A stretch of DNA of 64,000 bases from Clavibacter sepedonicus (lineage in GTDB: Bacteria > Actinomycetota > Actinomycetes > Actinomycetales > Microbacteriaceae). A program made the translations under genes and the position numbers. Shown here one piece after another: positions 16,791 through 47,413 of the stretch; position 1 is the stretch's first letter, and the number at the start of each line of letters is the position of its first letter. The stretch lies in the NCBI RefSeq assembly GCF_000069225.1, contig NC_010407.1, positions 1,674,001 through 1,738,000 of the forward strand, in the 5' to 3' direction. The notes under the pieces are model-generated. The model searched no databases. It saw only the letters and a list, made by a program, of their open reading frames with translations, and was not told the DNA's origin.

Positions 16791-16863
16791 GGGCCCTTAG
16801 CTCAGTTGGTAGAGCGCCACGTTTACACCGTGGATGTCGTCGGTTCGAGCCCGGCAGGGCCCA
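16791..16863 (+). tRNA. tRNA-Val (anticodon TAC)
   Basis: 73 nt with a full cloverleaf. Acceptor GGGCCCT pairs with AGGGCCC. The D-arm is GCTC/GAGC, the anticodon stem CCACG/CGTGG encloses loop TTTACAC with TAC at 16824-16826, and the T-arm GTCGG/CCGGC encloses TTCGAGC. It decodes GTA/GTG valine codons. The sequence continues CC after the discriminator A, without a full encoded CCA. Confidence 0.97.
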
Positions 16864-21570: not shown

Positions 21571-21958
21571 GCGGATGGGTCGGCAAGACGGTCGCGCCGC
21601 GGAGGATCCCGAGAGGGGGAGACCGCGTCGAGGAACGTCCGGGCTCCGCAGAGCAGGGCGGTGGGTAACACCCACCCGGGGCGACCCGCGAGACAGTGCA
21701 ACAGAGAGCAGACCGCCCGTCGCGGAAGCGGCGGGTGAGGGTGAAACGGCGGTGTAAGAGACCACCAGCGGCCCGAGTGATCGGGTCGGCTATGCAAACC
21801 TCGCCCGGAGCAAGGTCGAACAGGGGACGCACAGGCTGCTCGTCCAGTCCCCGGGTAGACCGCTGGAGGGCTGCGGTGACGCAGCTCCGAGATAGATGGC
21901 CGTCCATGGTGCCGCGAGGCACCGGGACAGAACCCGGCGTATCAGCCGGCCCATCCGC
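21571..21958 (+). ncRNA. rnpB: RNase P RNA, bacterial type A
   Basis: About 388 nt. The 5' segment GCGGATGGGTCGGC pairs with the 3' segment GCCGGCCCATCCGC to form P1. Conserved cores are present: GAGGAACGTCCGGGCTCC near the 5' third, and ACAGAACCCGGC followed by TATCAG near the 3' end. It is the catalytic RNA that matures tRNA 5' ends. Followed by a strong hairpin. Protein frames crossing it are artefacts. Confidence 0.96.
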
Positions 21959-41036: not shown

Positions 41037-41267
41037 CGCCGGCCCGCACAGGGGCGCATTGGCTCGCCCTCGCGCCCATCCGTGCAATAATCAGGTACGG
41101 ACCCGTTCATGTCCTGCATCTCGCATCACCTAGGTGGTTCACGAGCAGCGGACTTGACATGGGTCCTAGCAATGTCCGAAAACAACCCCGACCCACCTCC
41201 GGCAGGTCACCCCGCAGCGTCACCGCGGAGCGCGCGACCGGTCGTCGTGGGGACGAAAGGTGTTCGC

Positions 41268-42731
41268 ATGGCCACCCCCTCCACCCCGTCCGCCACCCTG
41301 GACGCGGCAGCCGCGACCAGCACGGCCGACGACGCCGCGACGGGTGAGCCGAAGGCACCCGCGAAGCGCGCCCCGGCCCGCAGGACCGCGGCCGCCAAGG
41401 CACCCGCGACCAAGACCGCCGCTGCCGCCAAGGCCCCCACGAAGGCGGCGGCCGCGAAGGCAGCAGCAGCAGAGGCCGACGAGCCCGTCGCCGCGGACGA
41501 ATCCGCGGCACCCGCGAAGGCGCCCACCGCCCGGGCGAAGGCGGCGGCCGCCAAGAAGGCCGCCGCCGCGTCGGGTGACGCCGCTCCCGCCAAGGCCCCG
41601 CGCAAGGCCGCCGCGAAGAAGACCGCGGGCACCGAGGCCCCCGACGACGACGCCGAGGAGGTCGTGGTCCCCGTCGCCGAGGACGACGCCGATGACGAGG
41701 TCGTCGAGGACGGCGCGGCCAAGCCGCCCGTCGTGCTCGAGCCGCTCCCCACCGGCGCCATGGTGCTGTCGAACAAGGAGGAGGACGAGGACGTCCCCGT
41801 CTACTCCACGACCATCACCGGCGCCACGGCCGACCCGGTCAAGGACTACCTCAAGCAGATCGGCAAGGTCGCGCTGCTCAACGCCGCGGAGGAGGTCGAG
41901 CTCGCCATGCGCATCGAGGCGGGCCTGTTCGCGGAGGACAAGCTCGCGAACACCCCCGGCATCTCCCGCGAGCTCGAGCGCGAGCTGCGCTGGGTCGCGC
42001 GCGACGGCCAGCGGGCGAAGAGCCACCTGCTCGGCGCGAACCTCCGCCTCGTCGTGAGCCTCGCCAAGCGCTACACGGGTCGCGGGATGCAGTTCCTCGA
42101 CCTCATCCAGGAGGGCAACCTCGGCCTCATCCGCGCGGTCGAGAAGTTCGACTACACCAAGGGCTTCAAGTTCTCCACGTACGCGACGTGGTGGATCCGC
42201 CAGGCCATCACGCGCGCCATGGCGGACCAGGCGCGCACCATCCGCATCCCGGTGCACATGGTCGAGGTCATCAACAAGCTCGCCCGCGTGCAGCGCCAGA
42301 TGCTGCAGGACCTGGGCCGCGAGCCCACGCCCGAGGAGCTCTCCCGCGAGCTCGACATGACGCCCGAGAAGGTCATCGAGGTCCAGAAGTACGGCCGCGA
42401 GCCCATCTCCCTGCACACGCCCCTCGGCGAGGACGGCGACAGCGAGTTCGGCGACCTCATCGAGGACACCGAGGCAGTGGTCCCCGCGGACGCGGTGGGC
42501 TTCACCATGCTGCAGAAGCAGCTGGAGTCGCTCCTCGACTCGCTCTCCGAGCGCGAGGCGGGCGTGATCCGCATGCGCTTCGGCCTCGGCGACGGCATGC
42601 CGAAGACGCTCGACCAGATCGGCGACACGTTCGGCGTCACGCGCGAGCGGATCCGCCAGATCGAGTCGAAGACCATGGCCAAGCTCCGCCACCCGTCGCG
42701 CTCGCAGTCGCTGCGCGACTACCTCGAGTAG
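41268..42731 (+). CDS. sigA: Primary RNA polymerase sigma factor
   Basis: 487 residues. The N-terminal 150 are Ala/Lys/Pro-rich and low complexity, then acidic, as in other actinobacterial SigA/HrdB. Region 1.2: [20 protein letters not shown]; region 2: [20 protein letters not shown] and [20 protein letters not shown]; region 4 helix-turn-helix: [23 protein letters not shown] at 41268 has GAAAGG upstream; an in-frame ATG at 41172 would add 32 residues. A TTGACA lies at 41154, within the leader. Confidence 0.96.
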
Positions 42732-42734
42732 GCC

Positions 42735-44051
42735 GTGCCCCTGCCCCTGCCCCTGCCCCTGCCCCTGCCCCTGCCCCTGCGCCTCGCCGTCGCCGCGGGA
42801 CGGGCCGCCCGCTGGGCCGCCCGTCTCCGCGGGGGCGGCTCCGCCGTGCCCGGCGTCGTCGCCCTCCGCCTCGATCCCCGCTTCCTGGAGCGGACGATCG
42901 CCGACCTGCCGCACGGCGTGGTCGCGGTCACCGGCTCGAACGGCAAGTCGACGACCACCCACATGCTCACCGCCGTGCTGCGCGCCCACGGGCTCCGCGT
43001 GTTCACGAACCCCTCGGGCGGCAACCTGCCGCAGGGCATCGCGTCCGCCGTGCTGGCGGACGCCGACGCATCCGGTCGCCTCGACGCCGACGTCGCCGTG
43101 CTGGAGATCGACGAGGCCTACGGCGTCGCGCTCTCCGCGCTGCTGACGCCGCGCACGGTCCTGCTCCTCAACATCCAGATCGACCAGCTCAACCGGTTCC
43201 ACGAGCCGGACCGCGTGGTCGGCATGCTCGAGCGGATCGCCGCCACGGCTACCGAGGCCGTCGTCGCCAACCGCGACGACGCGCACGTCAACGCCATCGC
43301 CGCGCACACCGCGCGGACCGGTCGCGCCGCCGTGGACTGGTTCGGCGTGTCCGAGGAGCTCCTCGGCGACAGCAAGCACGGGCTGGCATCCGCCCCGCGG
43401 TTCGGCTCCGAGGACCCCGACCCGGTGCACGTCGACGCGGGCGTCGAGGCCGTGGCGCTCGCGGGCCGCGACGCCGTGTTCCGCCTGGCGTCCGGCGACC
43501 TCCCGGTGACGCTCCCGTCGCGCGGCCTGCACTACGCCGTCGACGCCGCGGGCGCCCTCGCGACCGCTCGCCGGGTCCTCGGCGACCGCTTCGACCCGGC
43601 TCGCGCCGCGGAGGGGCTCGGCTCGGTCGCCGCCGTCTACGGGCGCGGCGAGATGCTGCGCGCGGGCGACGAGGACATCGAGATCATCATGATGAAGAAC
43701 CCCGCGTCCCTGCAGATGAACCTCGACGCGCTGGGCGATCCCCCGGAGCAGGTGCTGCTCGCAGTCGACGACGGCACCCCCGACCCCTCGTGGATCTACG
43801 ACACCGACCTCTCCGCGCTCACCCACGCCGACGTCGTCTCCGGCACGAAGGGCTACCAGCTCGCCGTGCGCTTCGGCTACGAGGGCCTCGAGGTCGGCCG
43901 GGTCGAGCCCGACCTGCGCCGCGCCGTGCAGGCGTTCCTCGCCATGGAGAAGCCGTCCCGCGGGGTCAAGACCATGATCGTCAACTACGAGCAGATGATG
44001 GCGATCCGCCGCATCCTCGGCTACACGGACCTCGAGGGAGGACCCGCGTGA
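42735..44051 (+). CDS. murT: MurT-like Mur ligase without the Cys4 zinc ribbon
   Basis: 438 residues from a GTG 3 nt after sigA. Mur ligase ATP loop VTGSNGKSTTT at 65-75, central domain to about 290, C-terminal DUF1727-type domain ending KTMIVNYEQMMAIRRILGY. The Asp of DPSWIYDTD, thought to complete the GatD triad, is present. Unlike Staphylococcus MurT it has no cysteine at all, so the Cys4 ribbon is missing. The protein begins with seven Pro-Leu pairs coded by a (CCCCTG)7 repeat. Overlaps gatD by 4 nt. Known partners amidate D-Glu of lipid II; that reaction is doubtful here. Confidence 0.88.
   Translation: MPLPLPLPLPLPLPLRLAVAAGRAARWAARLRGGGSAVPGVVALRLDPRFLERTIADLPHGVVAVTGSNGKSTTTHMLTAVLRAHGLRVFTNPSGGNLPQGIASAVLADADASGRLDADVAVLEIDEAYGVALSALLTPRTVLLLNIQIDQLNRFHEPDRVVGMLERIAATATEAVVANRDDAHVNAIAAHTARTGRAAVDWFGVSEELLGDSKHGLASAPRFGSEDPDPVHVDAGVEAVALAGRDAVFRLASGDLPVTLPSRGLHYAVDAAGALATARRVLGDRFDPARAAEGLGSVAAVYGRGEMLRAGDEDIEIIMMKNPASLQMNLDALGDPPEQVLLAVDDGTPDPSWIYDTDLSALTHADVVSGTKGYQLAVRFGYEGLEVGRVEPDLRRAVQAFLAMEKPSRGVKTMIVNYEQMMAIRRILGYTDLEGGPA
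42738..42779 (+). repeat. (CCCCTG)7 hexanucleotide repeat coding Pro-Leu repeats
   Basis: Seven exact copies of CCCCTG directly after the murT GTG, reading (Pro-Leu)7. Changes in copy number would keep the frame and alter only the N-terminal length. Confidence 0.95.
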
Positions 44052-44782
44052 GCGACGCCCTGCGCATCCTGCACCTCTACCCCGACGAGCTCGGCATCAA
44101 CGGCGACCGCGGCAACGTGACCGTGCTCGTCGAGCGTGCGCGCATCCGGGGGATCCGCACCGAGGTCGTGCGTCATGCTCCCGGTGGCGGGGATCCGGGC
44201 GACGCCGACCTCGTGGTCATCGGCTCCGGGCCGCTCACGGCGCAGCGCGCCGTCCTGCCCGATCTCGTCGCGCACGCCCCGCGCCTGGTCGCCCTCCGGG
44301 AGGCCGGGGTCCCGTTCCTCGCGGTGGGCGGCGGCCTGCAGCTCCTGGGGGAGTCCGTGCGCCTGATCGACGGCGGCGAGCTCGTGGGCGCGGCCGTGCT
44401 ACCGGTGCGCACCACCCTGACGGCCGAGCGACGTGTGGGCGACCTCGTGCTCGACACGCCGGACGGCGAGCTCGTCGGCTACGAGAACCACGGATCCACC
44501 CTGGAGATCGGCGAGCACGCGCCCCTCGGGATGGTGCGCGCCGGCTTCGGCAACGCGGGCCAGGGCGGCGGTGAGGGCGTGCGCGTCGGCGCGTCGGTCG
44601 GCACGCACCTCGGCGGTCCCGTCCTCGCGCTCAACCCGCGGCTGGCGGACGATCTGCTCTCCGCGGCCCTCGCCCGGCACGGCCTCGAGCTGCCCGCCGA
44701 CATCTCGGGGACGCTCGACCGGCTCGACGGCTGGGCGCAGGAGGCACGCGCCACCGTGATGGCGCGACCCGCGCACTACTGA
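44048..44782 (+). CDS. gatD: GatD-like amidotransferase with catalytic Cys and His lost
   Basis: 244 residues, GTG overlapping the murT stop. The fold markers of GatD are kept: LYPDELGINGDRGNV at the N-terminus, GVPFLAVGGGLQLLGESV, LVGYENHGSTLEIG and GTHLGGPVLALNPRLADDLL. The nucleophile position, normally CGGYQ, is GGGLQ (Gly94), and the triad His, normally LHGP, is LGGP (Gly189). There is no cysteine anywhere in the protein. It cannot work as a glutaminase by the known mechanism. The pair may use another amine, or GatD may be a structural partner. Confidence 0.87.
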   Translation: MSDALRILHLYPDELGINGDRGNVTVLVERARIRGIRTEVVRHAPGGGDPGDADLVVIGSGPLTAQRAVLPDLVAHAPRLVALREAGVPFLAVGGGLQLLGESVRLIDGGELVGAAVLPVRTTLTAERRVGDLVLDTPDGELVGYENHGSTLEIGEHAPLGMVRAGFGNAGQGGGEGVRVGASVGTHLGGPVLALNPRLADDLLSAALARHGLELPADISGTLDRLDGWAQEARATVMARPAHY

Positions 44783-44892: not shown

Positions 44893-45120
44893 CTAGGCGC
44901 GCTCGTCGAGCAGGCGGCTCGACTCGTCGTGCCAGCTCGTGGCGATTGCCGACAGCTTCTCCTGGTACTTCTTGCCGTGGTGGGCGCAGAAGAGGAGCTC
45001 GCTGCTGTTCACCTCGACGCGGATGTACGCCTGCGCGCCGCAGCTGTCGCAGCGGTCGTTGGCGGTGAGCTGGTGGTTGTCGAGCTCGTCCACGGGACGC
45101 TCGGTCGCGGTCGGTGTCAT
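44893..45120 (-). CDS. DUF7455 small zinc-binding protein
   Basis: 75 residues. Likely zinc site CxxC...CxxH in NDRCDSCGAQAYIRVEV and LLFCAHHGKKYQEKL. A conserved small actinobacterial protein usually found near sigA and the second topoisomerase genes, as here. Function unknown. ATG at 45120 with GGAGGGGAGC upstream, so it is a leadered gene. Confidence 0.87.
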   Translation of the reverse strand: MTPTATERPVDELDNHQLTANDRCDSCGAQAYIRVEVNSSELLFCAHHGKKYQEKLSAIATSWHDESSRLLDERA

Positions 45121-45334
45121 GTGATGCTCCCCTCCGGGTCGGGTCTGGGTCGAGCCGAATGGATCAAGTAGACCACGTGCTCCCGGCAGTCCACCCGACC
45201 GCGTCCGCCTGTTTCGCTCTGCGCGTAGGGCGCGGGGCGGGGGACGGCGATTCGCGAGGGGAGGCGGCGGGCGACGGTTAAGATCGATGTCGGCTCGCGT
45301 CCGGCGAATGCCGGACGTACATGGAGGACAGCAC

Positions 45335-47413
45335 GTGGCAGCATCCGATTATTCCGCCCGCCACCTCTCCGTCCTCGAGGGCCTCGAGGCGGTGCGCAAG
45401 CGGCCCGGCATGTACATCGGATCCACCGACTCGCGCGGCCTCATGCACTGCCTCTGGGAGATCATCGACAACAGCGTCGACGAGGCGCTCGGCGGGCACG
45501 GCGACCTGATCGACGTGCGGCTCCACCCCGACGGCAGCGTCGAGGTGCGCGACACCGCGCGCGGCGTCCCGGTCGACATCGAGCCCAAGACCGGGCTGTC
45601 CGGCGTCGAGGTCGTCTTCACCAAGCTGCACGCCGGCGGCAAGTTCGGATCCGGCTCGTACGCGTCCTCGGGCGGCCTGCACGGCGTGGGCGCGTCCGTC
45701 GTGAACGCCCTGTCGGAGCGCCTCGACGTCGAGGTGGACCGCGGCGGCAAGACGTACGCCATGTCCTTCCGACGCGGCGAGCCGGGCATCTTCGAGGACC
45801 AGGGGGAGGCGAGCCCCGACGCGCCGTTCCGCCCCTTCACGTCCGGCAGCGAGCTGCGGGTCGTGGGCAAGGTGCGCAAGGGCGTCACCGGCACGCGGAT
45901 CCGCTACTGGGCCGACCGGCAGATCTTCACCCGCGGCGCGTCCTTCCTCACCGAGGAGCTCCTCGGCCGCGCGCGCCAGACCGCGTTCCTCGTGCCCGGG
46001 CTCAGCATCGACATCAAGGACCTGCGCGGCGAGCAGCCCGTGCGCGAGTCCTTCCGGTTCGACGGCGGGATCGCGGAGTTCGTCGACCACCTGGCCGTCG
46101 ACGCGCCGCTGACGGACACCTGGCGGCTCGAGGGATCCGGCACGTTCACCGAGACGGTGCCCGTCCTCACGGACGGCGGGGCCATGGTGCCGACCGAGCT
46201 CACCCGAGAGTGCGCCGTCGACATCGCGCTCCGCTGGGGCACGGGGTACGACACCCGGTTCAAGTCGTTCGTCAACATCATCGCCACGCCCAAGGGCGGC
46301 ACCCACCAGGCAGGCTTCGAGGCGGGCCTGCTCAAGTTCGTGCGCGCGCAGGTCGAGGCCAACGCGCGGAAGCTCAAGGTCGGCACCGACAAGCTCGAGA
46401 AGGACGACGTGCTCGCGGGCCTCACCGCCGTGCTCACGGTGCGCTTCCCCGAGCCGCAGTTCGAGGGCCAGACCAAGGAGGTGCTCGGCACGCCGGCCGT
46501 CCGCGCCATCGTGTCGCAGGTCGTGCAGAAGGCCATGGCCGACCGCTTCGCGTCGCCGCGCCGCGAGGACAAGGCGCAGACCGCCGTGCTCCTCGAGAAG
46601 GTCGTGGGGGAGATGAAGTCGCGCATCTCGGCCCGGACCCACAAGGAGACCCAGCGGCGGAAGAACGCCCTCGAGAGCTCGTCGCTCCCGGCGAAGCTCG
46701 TGGACTGCCGCTCGAACGACGTCGCCAACAGCGAGCTCTTCATCGTCGAGGGCGACTCGGCGCTCGGCACGGCGAAGCTCGCGCGCGACAGCGAGTACCA
46801 GGCGCTGCTGCCCATCCGCGGCAAGATCCTGAACGTGCAGAAGGCGTCGCTGCCCGACATGCTCTCCAACACCGAGTGCGCGTCGATCATCCAGGTGCTG
46901 GGCGCGGGATCCGGCCGCACGTTCGACCTGTCGGCGGCGCGCTACGGGAAGATCATCATCATGAGCGACGCCGATGTCGACGGCGCCCACATCCGCACGC
47001 TGCTGCTCACGCTCTTCTTCCGCTACATGCGGCCGATGATCGACGAGGGCCGCGTGTTCGCCGCGGTGCCGCCGCTGCACCGCGTCGTGGTCATGAACCC
47101 CGGCTCGAAGCCCAATGACGTGATCTACACCTACTCGGAGCGCGAGCTGGCGGCCGTGCTCGCCCAGGCGAAGCGGCAGGGCAAGCGCTACCAGGACCCG
47201 ATCCAGCGGTACAAGGGCCTGGGGGAGATGGGCGCCGACCAGCTGGCGACGACCACCATGGACCGGCGCAACCGCACGCTCCGGCGCGTGCGGGTCGATG
47301 ACGCCGAGGCCGCCACGCGCATGTTCGAGCTGCTGATGGGCAACGACGTCGCACCCCGCAAGGAGTTCATCATCGACGGCGCCGGATCCGTGCGGGACCG
47401 CATCGACGTGTGA
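45335..47413 (+). CDS. parE: Type IIA topoisomerase B subunit (ParE/GyrB-like)
   Basis: 692 residues. GHKL ATPase: EIIDNSVDEALGGHGD, GGLHGVGASVVNALSE; transducer Lys in the KGGTHQAGF region; TOPRIM: ELFIVEGDSALGTAKLARD and IIMSDADVDGAHIRTLLL. It works with the A subunit coded convergently downstream. Actinobacteria of this family also have gyrAB near dnaA, so this is probably the decatenating pair, though GyrB cannot be excluded from sequence alone. GTG at 45335 with GGAGGA 7 nt upstream. Confidence 0.92.
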   Translation: MAASDYSARHLSVLEGLEAVRKRPGMYIGSTDSRGLMHCLWEIIDNSVDEALGGHGDLIDVRLHPDGSVEVRDTARGVPVDIEPKTGLSGVEVVFTKLHAGGKFGSGSYASSGGLHGVGASVVNALSERLDVEVDRGGKTYAMSFRRGEPGIFEDQGEASPDAPFRPFTSGSELRVVGKVRKGVTGTRIRYWADRQIFTRGASFLTEELLGRARQTAFLVPGLSIDIKDLRGEQPVRESFRFDGGIAEFVDHLAVDAPLTDTWRLEGSGTFTETVPVLTDGGAMVPTELTRECAVDIALRWGTGYDTRFKSFVNIIATPKGGTHQAGFEAGLLKFVRAQVEANARKLKVGTDKLEKDDVLAGLTAVLTVRFPEPQFEGQTKEVLGTPAVRAIVSQVVQKAMADRFASPRREDKAQTAVLLEKVVGEMKSRISARTHKETQRRKNALESSSLPAKLVDCRSNDVANSELFIVEGDSALGTAKLARDSEYQALLPIRGKILNVQKASLPDMLSNTECASIIQVLGAGSGRTFDLSAARYGKIIIMSDADVDGAHIRTLLLTLFFRYMRPMIDEGRVFAAVPPLHRVVVMNPGSKPNDVIYTYSERELAAVLAQAKRQGKRYQDPIQRYKGLGEMGADQLATTTMDRRNRTLRRVRVDDAEAATRMFELLMGNDVAPRKEFIIDGAGSVRDRIDV

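Follow-up and report, generated by a model that had tools for sequence, protein, structure and literature searches.

Introduction

The usual role of the MurT/GatD pair is to add ammonia to the cell wall of bacteria. The Mur ligases MurC to MurF add amino acids to activated carboxyls, the same chemistry as is proposed here for a derived MurT, and the MurT and CofE families both join amines to activated carboxyls. Group B peptidoglycan, a long-used taxonomic marker, is cross-linked via the alpha-carboxyl of D-Glu, and the Microbacteriaceae as a whole are regarded as B-type. This study was concerned with a murT-gatD gene pair in a stretch of 64,000 nucleotides from Clavibacter sepedonicus (contig NC_010407.1, positions 1,674,001 to 1,738,000), referred to as the window; its products and their closest relatives are termed derived MurT and derived GatD. 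The pair is intact, selected, old and without the glutaminase residues, and it is replaced in its genomic slot, between sigA and parE, by another ligase family.

The closest described system is the MurT/GatD lipid II isoglutaminyl synthase of Staphylococcus aureus. MurT and GatD were each inactive alone (PMC3266927). The GatD variants C94A, H189A and R128A showed no glutamine deamidation (PMC5871853), amidation in vitro was abolished by C94S and C94G, and MurT D349N left it severely reduced or absent (PMC6113224). The C94G variant lost glutamine use, with ammonia-dependent activity at pH 8.5 and none at pH 7.5 (PMC3266927). These mutant data indicate that the GatD of the window naturally carries a change which kills glutamine use and spares MurT. 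The zinc ribbon of MurT has been reported from only some bacteria (PMC6113224, PMC6085368).

Walls reported in the family include B2gamma with diaminobutyrate in Subtercola (PMC5945732), B2beta in Rhodoluna (PMC4156110), a B-type wall in Leucobacter chironomi (PMC4511665) and diaminobutyrate with gamma-aminobutyrate in L. salsicius (PMC4148977), and Clavibacter has been linked to B2gamma (PMC5882085). Among the titles and abstracts listed in searches of the open-licence literature, none named an enzyme for attaching the B-type bridge, and nothing in that literature joined MurT, GatD and Microbacteriaceae. Among the matches listed, there was also no MurT in plant-associated genera and no CofE-peptidoglycan link of this kind.

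The murT-gatD pair of the window

The features of the pair, in window coordinates, are as follows.

42735..44051, plus strand: derived murT, 438 amino acids, no cysteine (open reading frame, Pfam; inside the derived clade of the MurT tree)
42933..42956, plus strand: P-loop GSNGKSTT of derived MurT, GTNGKTTT in canonical relatives (sequence, row counts)
43782..43784, plus strand: Asp codon of derived MurT, equivalent to S. aureus MurT Asp349, kept (alignment)
43989..43991, plus strand: Glu codon of NYEQMM in derived MurT, at the Thr of canonical TYTAM
44048..44782, plus strand: derived gatD, predicted to be glutaminase-dead, no cysteine (open reading frame, Pfam)
44327..44329, plus strand: Gly94 codon of derived GatD, at the catalytic Cys position (alignment)
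44429..44431, plus strand: Arg128 codon of derived GatD, equivalent to the glutamine-sequestering Arg, kept (alignment; PMC5871853)
44612..44614, plus strand: Gly189 codon of derived GatD, at the catalytic His position (alignment)

Both reading frames are open, start with GTG and overlap by four bases. Pfam assigned Mur_ligase_M and MurT_C to the derived MurT and GATase_3 to the derived GatD, and by these domains and the pairing of the genes the two proteins belong to the MurT/GatD superfamily by descent. The best NCBIfam matches were the MurT and GatD isoglutaminyl synthase models, at 108.5 bits for MurT and 114 bits for GatD, short of the equivalog cut-offs of 800 and 450 bits. In the alignment with S. 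aureus GatD (5n9m), Cys94 and His189 are both replaced by Gly, and the translations of the two genes contain no cysteine, just as the first-pass annotation of this DNA had claimed. Among the residues expected of a glutamine-dependent isoglutaminyl synthase, the window pair has the glutamine-binding Arg128 of GatD and the Asp349 equivalent of MurT and lacks Cys94 and His189; the P-loop and the Glu108 equivalent are also kept in MurT. At the sequence level, the derived GatD corresponds to a known inactive mutant and should be without glutamine hydrolysis.

The annotation had further held that the ATP loop, gene overlap and frames are intact and that the pair is kept by selection, and this was borne out. 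Gly94 and Gly189 were kept in 10 of 10 genus members examined, and the median ratio of nonsynonymous to synonymous substitution rates (dN/dS) within the genus (45 pairs) was 0.140 for gatD and 0.065 for murT, beside 0.033 for parE and 0.032 for sigA. This conservation, the low dN/dS and the clade-wide loss of the cysteine described below argue that the loss of residues in GatD is not due to chance. A second, intact pair in the genome had been named as a finding that would speak against reuse of the complex. The genome of the window holds a single MurT_C match and no second one; elsewhere, two matches were found in nine of 398 family genomes. At the start of murT, a hexanucleotide repeat (TGCCCC, 8.2 copies, 42736-42784) encodes an added Leu-Pro run, and the frame is 427 amino acids long in genus relatives versus 438 in the window.

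The window pair resembles the MurT/GatD synthase of S. aureus and S. pneumoniae in its homologous subunits, gene order, overlap, ATP-site motifs and Asp349 and Arg128 equivalents. It differs from that synthase in lacking the nucleophile Cys, in its altered capping Tyr and oxyanion Gly, in a new acidic MurT residue and in scoring far under the equivalog cut-offs. The derived MurT shares the Mur_ligase_M ATP-binding domain with MurC to MurF; unlike these, MurT is without the N-terminal UDP-binding domain (PMC6113224) and is paired with a GatD-like subunit.

Distribution and residue conservation

MurT_C, with all MurT types counted, was found in 273 of 398 Microbacteriaceae genomes, and among the matches listed the scores cluster near 90, 60 and 40 bits, with the window at about 40. 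The derived-GatD profile matched 76 of 100 family genomes. A tree of 97 MurT rows set 29 canonical rows apart from 59 derived ones (SH-aLRT 99 for the derived group), with a further nine rows outlying. Two of the genomes with two MurT_C matches (G054 and G066) had both copies read, and in each, one copy was canonical and the other derived. Named derived genera were Clavibacter, Planctomonas, Leifsonia, Subtercola, Pseudoclavibacter, Diaminobutyricibacter, Conyzicola, Salinibacterium and Okibacterium. A further set of relatives, the best 80 of 462 and so biased to the branch of the query, added Cryobacterium, Agromyces, Plantibacter, Glaciihabitans, Amnibacterium and others. The named canonical genera were Leucobacter, Lysinibacter and Canibacter. 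A genome of only 927,303 bases (G015, locus L089) carries a derived MurT-GatD pair without the nucleophile Cys, overlapped tail to tail by a racemase-like gene.

The nucleophile Cys of GatD was present in 29 of 29 canonical Microbacteriaceae rows and in 30 of 30 rows from other families of the order, versus 0 of 60 derived rows from sampled genomes and 0 of 79 from named relatives; paired counts below follow this order. In total, the Cys was missing from all 139 derived rows (131 distinct, since eight GatD sequences are present twice) and present in every one of the 59 rows that were canonical or outgroup. The 60 rows exclude repeat loci (L072, L083), outlying canonical types (L082, L088, L091), a third class counted separately (L093, L096, L098) and very divergent loci (L097, L100), and the 29 canonical rows exclude the outlying, Cys4-bearing L002. 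Stored protein matches gave the same picture. With a canonical query, Cys, His and Arg were present in 120 of 120, and among the matches chosen from derived queries Cys was absent in 157 of 158, the exception being P0043; this set excludes P0044-P0046, P0049-P0051 and P0053-P0056, four of which (P0044, P0049, P0053, P0055) show the Cys and look canonical. On this evidence from sequences, the loss of the Cys is an ancient clade feature within the Microbacteriaceae and not decay.

The first-pass annotation had named the loss of both Cys and His, which holds across the clade for the Cys. Loss of His189 is confined to a subset, with 43 of 60 rows and 78 of 79 retaining it. Arg128 remains in 56 of 60 rows and 79 of 79, and the Asp349 equivalent of MurT in 59 of 59 and 80 of 80, as do the ATP-site residues in all rows counted. 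Other positions have changed. All 59 canonical and outgroup rows have the capping Tyr of GatD, where 48 of 60 and 79 of 79 derived rows have Asn; Ser stands in place of the oxyanion Gly60 in 38 of 60 and 77 of 79. The Thr of MurT TYTAM is likewise common to the 59 canonical and outgroup rows, and an acidic residue is found there in 58 of 59 and 80 of 80 derived rows. These changed residues lie, as we infer, on the amine-donor side and may mean a changed nucleophile. A profile alignment comparing the new acidic residue with the diamino-acid-binding glutamate of MurE ends short of the C-terminus.

The annotation had also counted the Cys4 zinc ribbon of MurT among the features stripped from the pair. 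This part is ruled out, because the ribbon is missing from canonical relatives too: none of 29 canonical Microbacteriaceae MurTs and none of 30 from other families of the order had one.

The sigA-parE slot and its CofE-like substitute

The borders of the slot in the window, and a further gene within it, are as follows.

41109..42731, plus strand: sigA (sigma-70), left border of the conserved slot (Pfam, synteny)
45287..47413, plus strand: parE/gyrB-type gene, right border of the conserved slot (Pfam, synteny)
44893-45120, minus strand: DUF7455 protein, 75 amino acids, CxxC...CAHH motif, between gatD and parE

Of the 80 named derived loci, 79 have sigA upstream and 79 have parE downstream, and the gap between sigA and murT is under 90 bases in the 78 that show sigA, murT, gatD and parE. 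The canonical pair is found elsewhere, with no murT or gatD match in the sigA-parE interval of six canonical genomes examined. A third, very divergent MurT-GatD class occupies the same sigA slot (L093, L096, L098, L292-L295); its nucleophile column is His in three of three counted, and an ATP-grasp gene lies beside some members. In G053 (L097) and G123, MurT- and GatD-like genes and weakly CofE-like ones lie near one another in a separate divergent cluster, which was not seen adjoining sigA.

A CofE-like gene takes the place of the pair in other genomes of the family. Across the 398 genomes, strong CofE-like matches occurred in 62 and MurT_C in 273, with an overlap of 0 versus 42.5 expected (Fisher p 9e-38, a value that ignores kinship). 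Weak CofE matches in G053, G123 and G147 (129-165 bits), all in MurT_C genomes, were counted separately; if included, they bring the overlap to three of 65. In a sample of 100 genomes across the family, MurT or GatD was found in 79, the CofE-like protein in 16, both in one (G053, weak) and neither in six (G019, G022, G038, G049, G051, G062), of which G022 and G038 are incomplete or fragmented.

The replacement is also one of position. Among 15 genomes without MurT, 12 have a long sigA-parE interval, and the CofE-like gene lies inside 11 of the 12; in the twelfth (G049) the slot seems, by eye, to be filled by transporter genes, and in G019 and G051 sigA and parE are close together. Thirteen of the 15 have five Mur_ligase_M matches, versus six in each of four MurT genomes. 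The CofE-like gene adjoins sigA in eight more CofE genomes, and it directly follows sigA in 19 of 19 loci read, with a transaminase intervening in one (L253). The protein matches PF01996 at 46-48 bits (cut-off 25; three tested). It shares this domain with CofE, the F420-0:glutamate ligase, and differs from it in its sigA-parE placement and in scoring only 29.1 and 29.9 bits against the CofE equivalog TIGR01916 (cut-off 180.65; two tested).

Both kinds occur, by profile match and with loci read for part only, in 12 genera (g7, g9, g13, g48, g58, g74, g75, g76, g79, g80, g84 and g85). A parE tree of 67 rows, partly picked as CofE-bearing and without the repeat rows L085, L098, L080, L067 and L062, requires at least nine changes between MurT and CofE.

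Neighbouring genes of the slot

An ATP-grasp gene was seen in 16 of the 18 uncut CofE loci and one resembling alanine racemase in 12; three loci contain an EctB-type (diaminobutyrate transaminase type) gene. Of the 60 derived loci, half of them read to only 1.5 kb, 16 have an alanine-racemase-like gene near derived gatD; ten of the 16 are tail to tail at about 112 bases or less, one is tail to tail at 771, and five are on the same strand at 140-1273. For example, G106 has the order sigA, derived murT, derived gatD, alr, parE, and G215 of the same genus has sigA, cofE, ATP-grasp, alr, parE. In the genome of the window, two racemase-like genes stand side by side beyond the window.

The ATP-grasp gene is also found beside the divergent MurT-GatD pairs of G009, G018 and G032. 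At E <= 1e-20, the ATP-grasp profile had no match in the genome of the window and matched 19 of the 100 family genomes; weak matches occur in G014 (genus g15) and G051.

The murE genes read (L314-L322) carry the C-terminal motif GPGHE or GPGHQ depending on the genome, which perhaps marks the residue at stem position 3. Among 299 genomes, 105 had GPGHQ only and 96 GPGHE only, and strong CofE-like matches were found in 21 of the 105 versus five of the 96, a loose trend without correction for kinship, which falls short of a rule tying the ligase type to the MurE motif. Neither pattern was matched by 18 of 45 CofE genomes.

Around the pair, the gene order in the window is lap (minus), pac2, mfs, sigA, murT, gatD, DUF7455 (minus), parE and parC (minus), with lap, mfs and parC assigned by eye. 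The window also contains a class A RNase P RNA (21576-21957) and a tRNA gene (16791-16863).

Other families of the order

In 139 genomes of other families, MurT_C was found in 47 and CofE-profile matches (158-199 bits) in 11, with both in none versus 3.7 expected (p 0.009). These CofE-profile matches sit in frames of 842-1016 amino acids. Three frames scanned were AsnB-like amidotransferases that carry the match C-terminally, and Pfam names a CofE domain in one of them, slightly below its cut-off. Seven such fusions were fetched: two start with MSGISG, three with MCGI and two with neither pattern. In the two with MSGISG (L282, L288), the Cys of the class II glutaminase may be Ser, and their genomes are without a MurT_C match; such fusions may represent another instance in which a glutaminase has lost its Cys.

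Discussion

The results point, with moderate confidence, to a reused lipid II amidotransferase in which the derived MurT joins a bridge amino acid, the derived GatD is a dead partner and the CofE-like ligase is an unrelated substitute. The amino-acid-adding class of the derived MurT is suggested by its exclusive same-slot replacement and by the racemase, ATP-grasp and sometimes EctB-type genes that accompany the CofE-like ligase, and the idea of reuse in the first-pass annotation gains support from the same facts. The broader view, that the sigA-parE slot encodes the enzyme starting the B-type bridge on the alpha-carboxyl of D-Glu in two unrelated and mutually exclusive versions (the derived MurT with its pseudo-glutaminase GatD as an amino-acid ligase, or the CofE-like ligase), is held tentatively, at close to an even chance.

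In the proposed mechanism, the derived MurT would bind ATP and activate the alpha-carboxyl of the D-Glu of the stem peptide, as expected from its family and its kept motifs. The nucleophile would be the amine of an amino acid and not ammonia made by GatD, most likely that of a diamino acid serving as the first residue of the B-type bridge, and the product would be the first bridge bond. The derived GatD would stay as an obligatory partner after losing glutamine hydrolysis and might, speculatively, use the conserved Arg128 to bind the amino acid that is to be joined. In roughly one in six of the sampled genomes of the family, the CofE-like ligase would do the same job from the same slot.

Several findings weigh against this proposal. 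First, no racemase lies in the slot of the window or of any of the 80 named loci. Secondly, the Fisher value for exclusion takes no account of kinship, and a kinship-aware test found five supported independent pairs, four or five of them in opposite directions and none the same way (p 0.0625). Third, Leucobacter, a genus in which one species is reported to be B-type, has only the canonical pair among its named proteins, L. chironomi not being among these. The annotation had expected the loss to track the B-type wall; in its strict form this is ruled out, as the named Leucobacter proteins keep Cys94 and His189 in a genus with a B-type wall reported (PMC4511665). Together with the six of 100 genomes without any of these enzymes, Leucobacter implies that B-type bridging must have other solutions. 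In addition, G351, of the Leucobacter-like genus g15, has a CofE-like gene in place of the canonical pair, so the CofE-like ligase might replace an amidating pair, and in Naasia lichenicola (L179) the derived murT lies about 1 kb after sigA with no gatD or parE within the next 5 kb. The cases of G351 and L179 slightly lower the odds. Lastly, the AsnB-CofE fusions, with the Cys start intact in three of seven, suggest that CofE domains may work with ammonia.

The strongest alternative, though an unlikely one, is that the derived MurT and GatD act otherwise on the wall precursor, on another substrate or in the control of synthesis, and that the CofE-like ligase replaces that role. The slot neighbours do vary among species and several substrate-side motifs of the derived MurT are altered, but every derived row counted retains the ATP-site residues and Asp349, and both exchangeable enzymes come from families that join amines to activated carboxyls. 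Somewhat less probable still is a pair that continues to amidate D-Glu with free ammonia as its nitrogen source and GatD as a scaffold. The S. aureus pair with GatD C94G is active with ammonia at pH 8.5 but did not use it at pH 7.5 (PMC3266927). The AsnB-CofE fusions would fit such a use of ammonia. However, the racemase and the EctB-type transaminase of the slot make amino acids and not ammonia, and G054 and G066 hold a canonical pair alongside the derived one.

It is improbable that bridge ligation is really the work of the slot's ATP-grasp protein, with the derived MurT and CofE-like proteins as accessories: its gene occurs in 16 of 18 uncut CofE loci and next to some divergent pairs, but it has no match (E <= 1e-20) in the genome of the window or in most of the 100 genomes, including most with derived MurT. 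Plain degeneration, suggested by the absence of both catalytic residues of GatD in the window, is ruled out for practical purposes by the open frames, a genus dN/dS well below 1, the derived-clade tree and the retention of MurT, all types counted, in 273 of 398 genomes.

With the amino-acid-ligase proposal as the preferred reading, a single slot with two interchangeable candidates would make the question of the B-type bridge enzyme directly testable. If it is true, this would be a glutamine amidotransferase that turned into an amino-acid ligase after losing its glutaminase, with the dead subunit kept.

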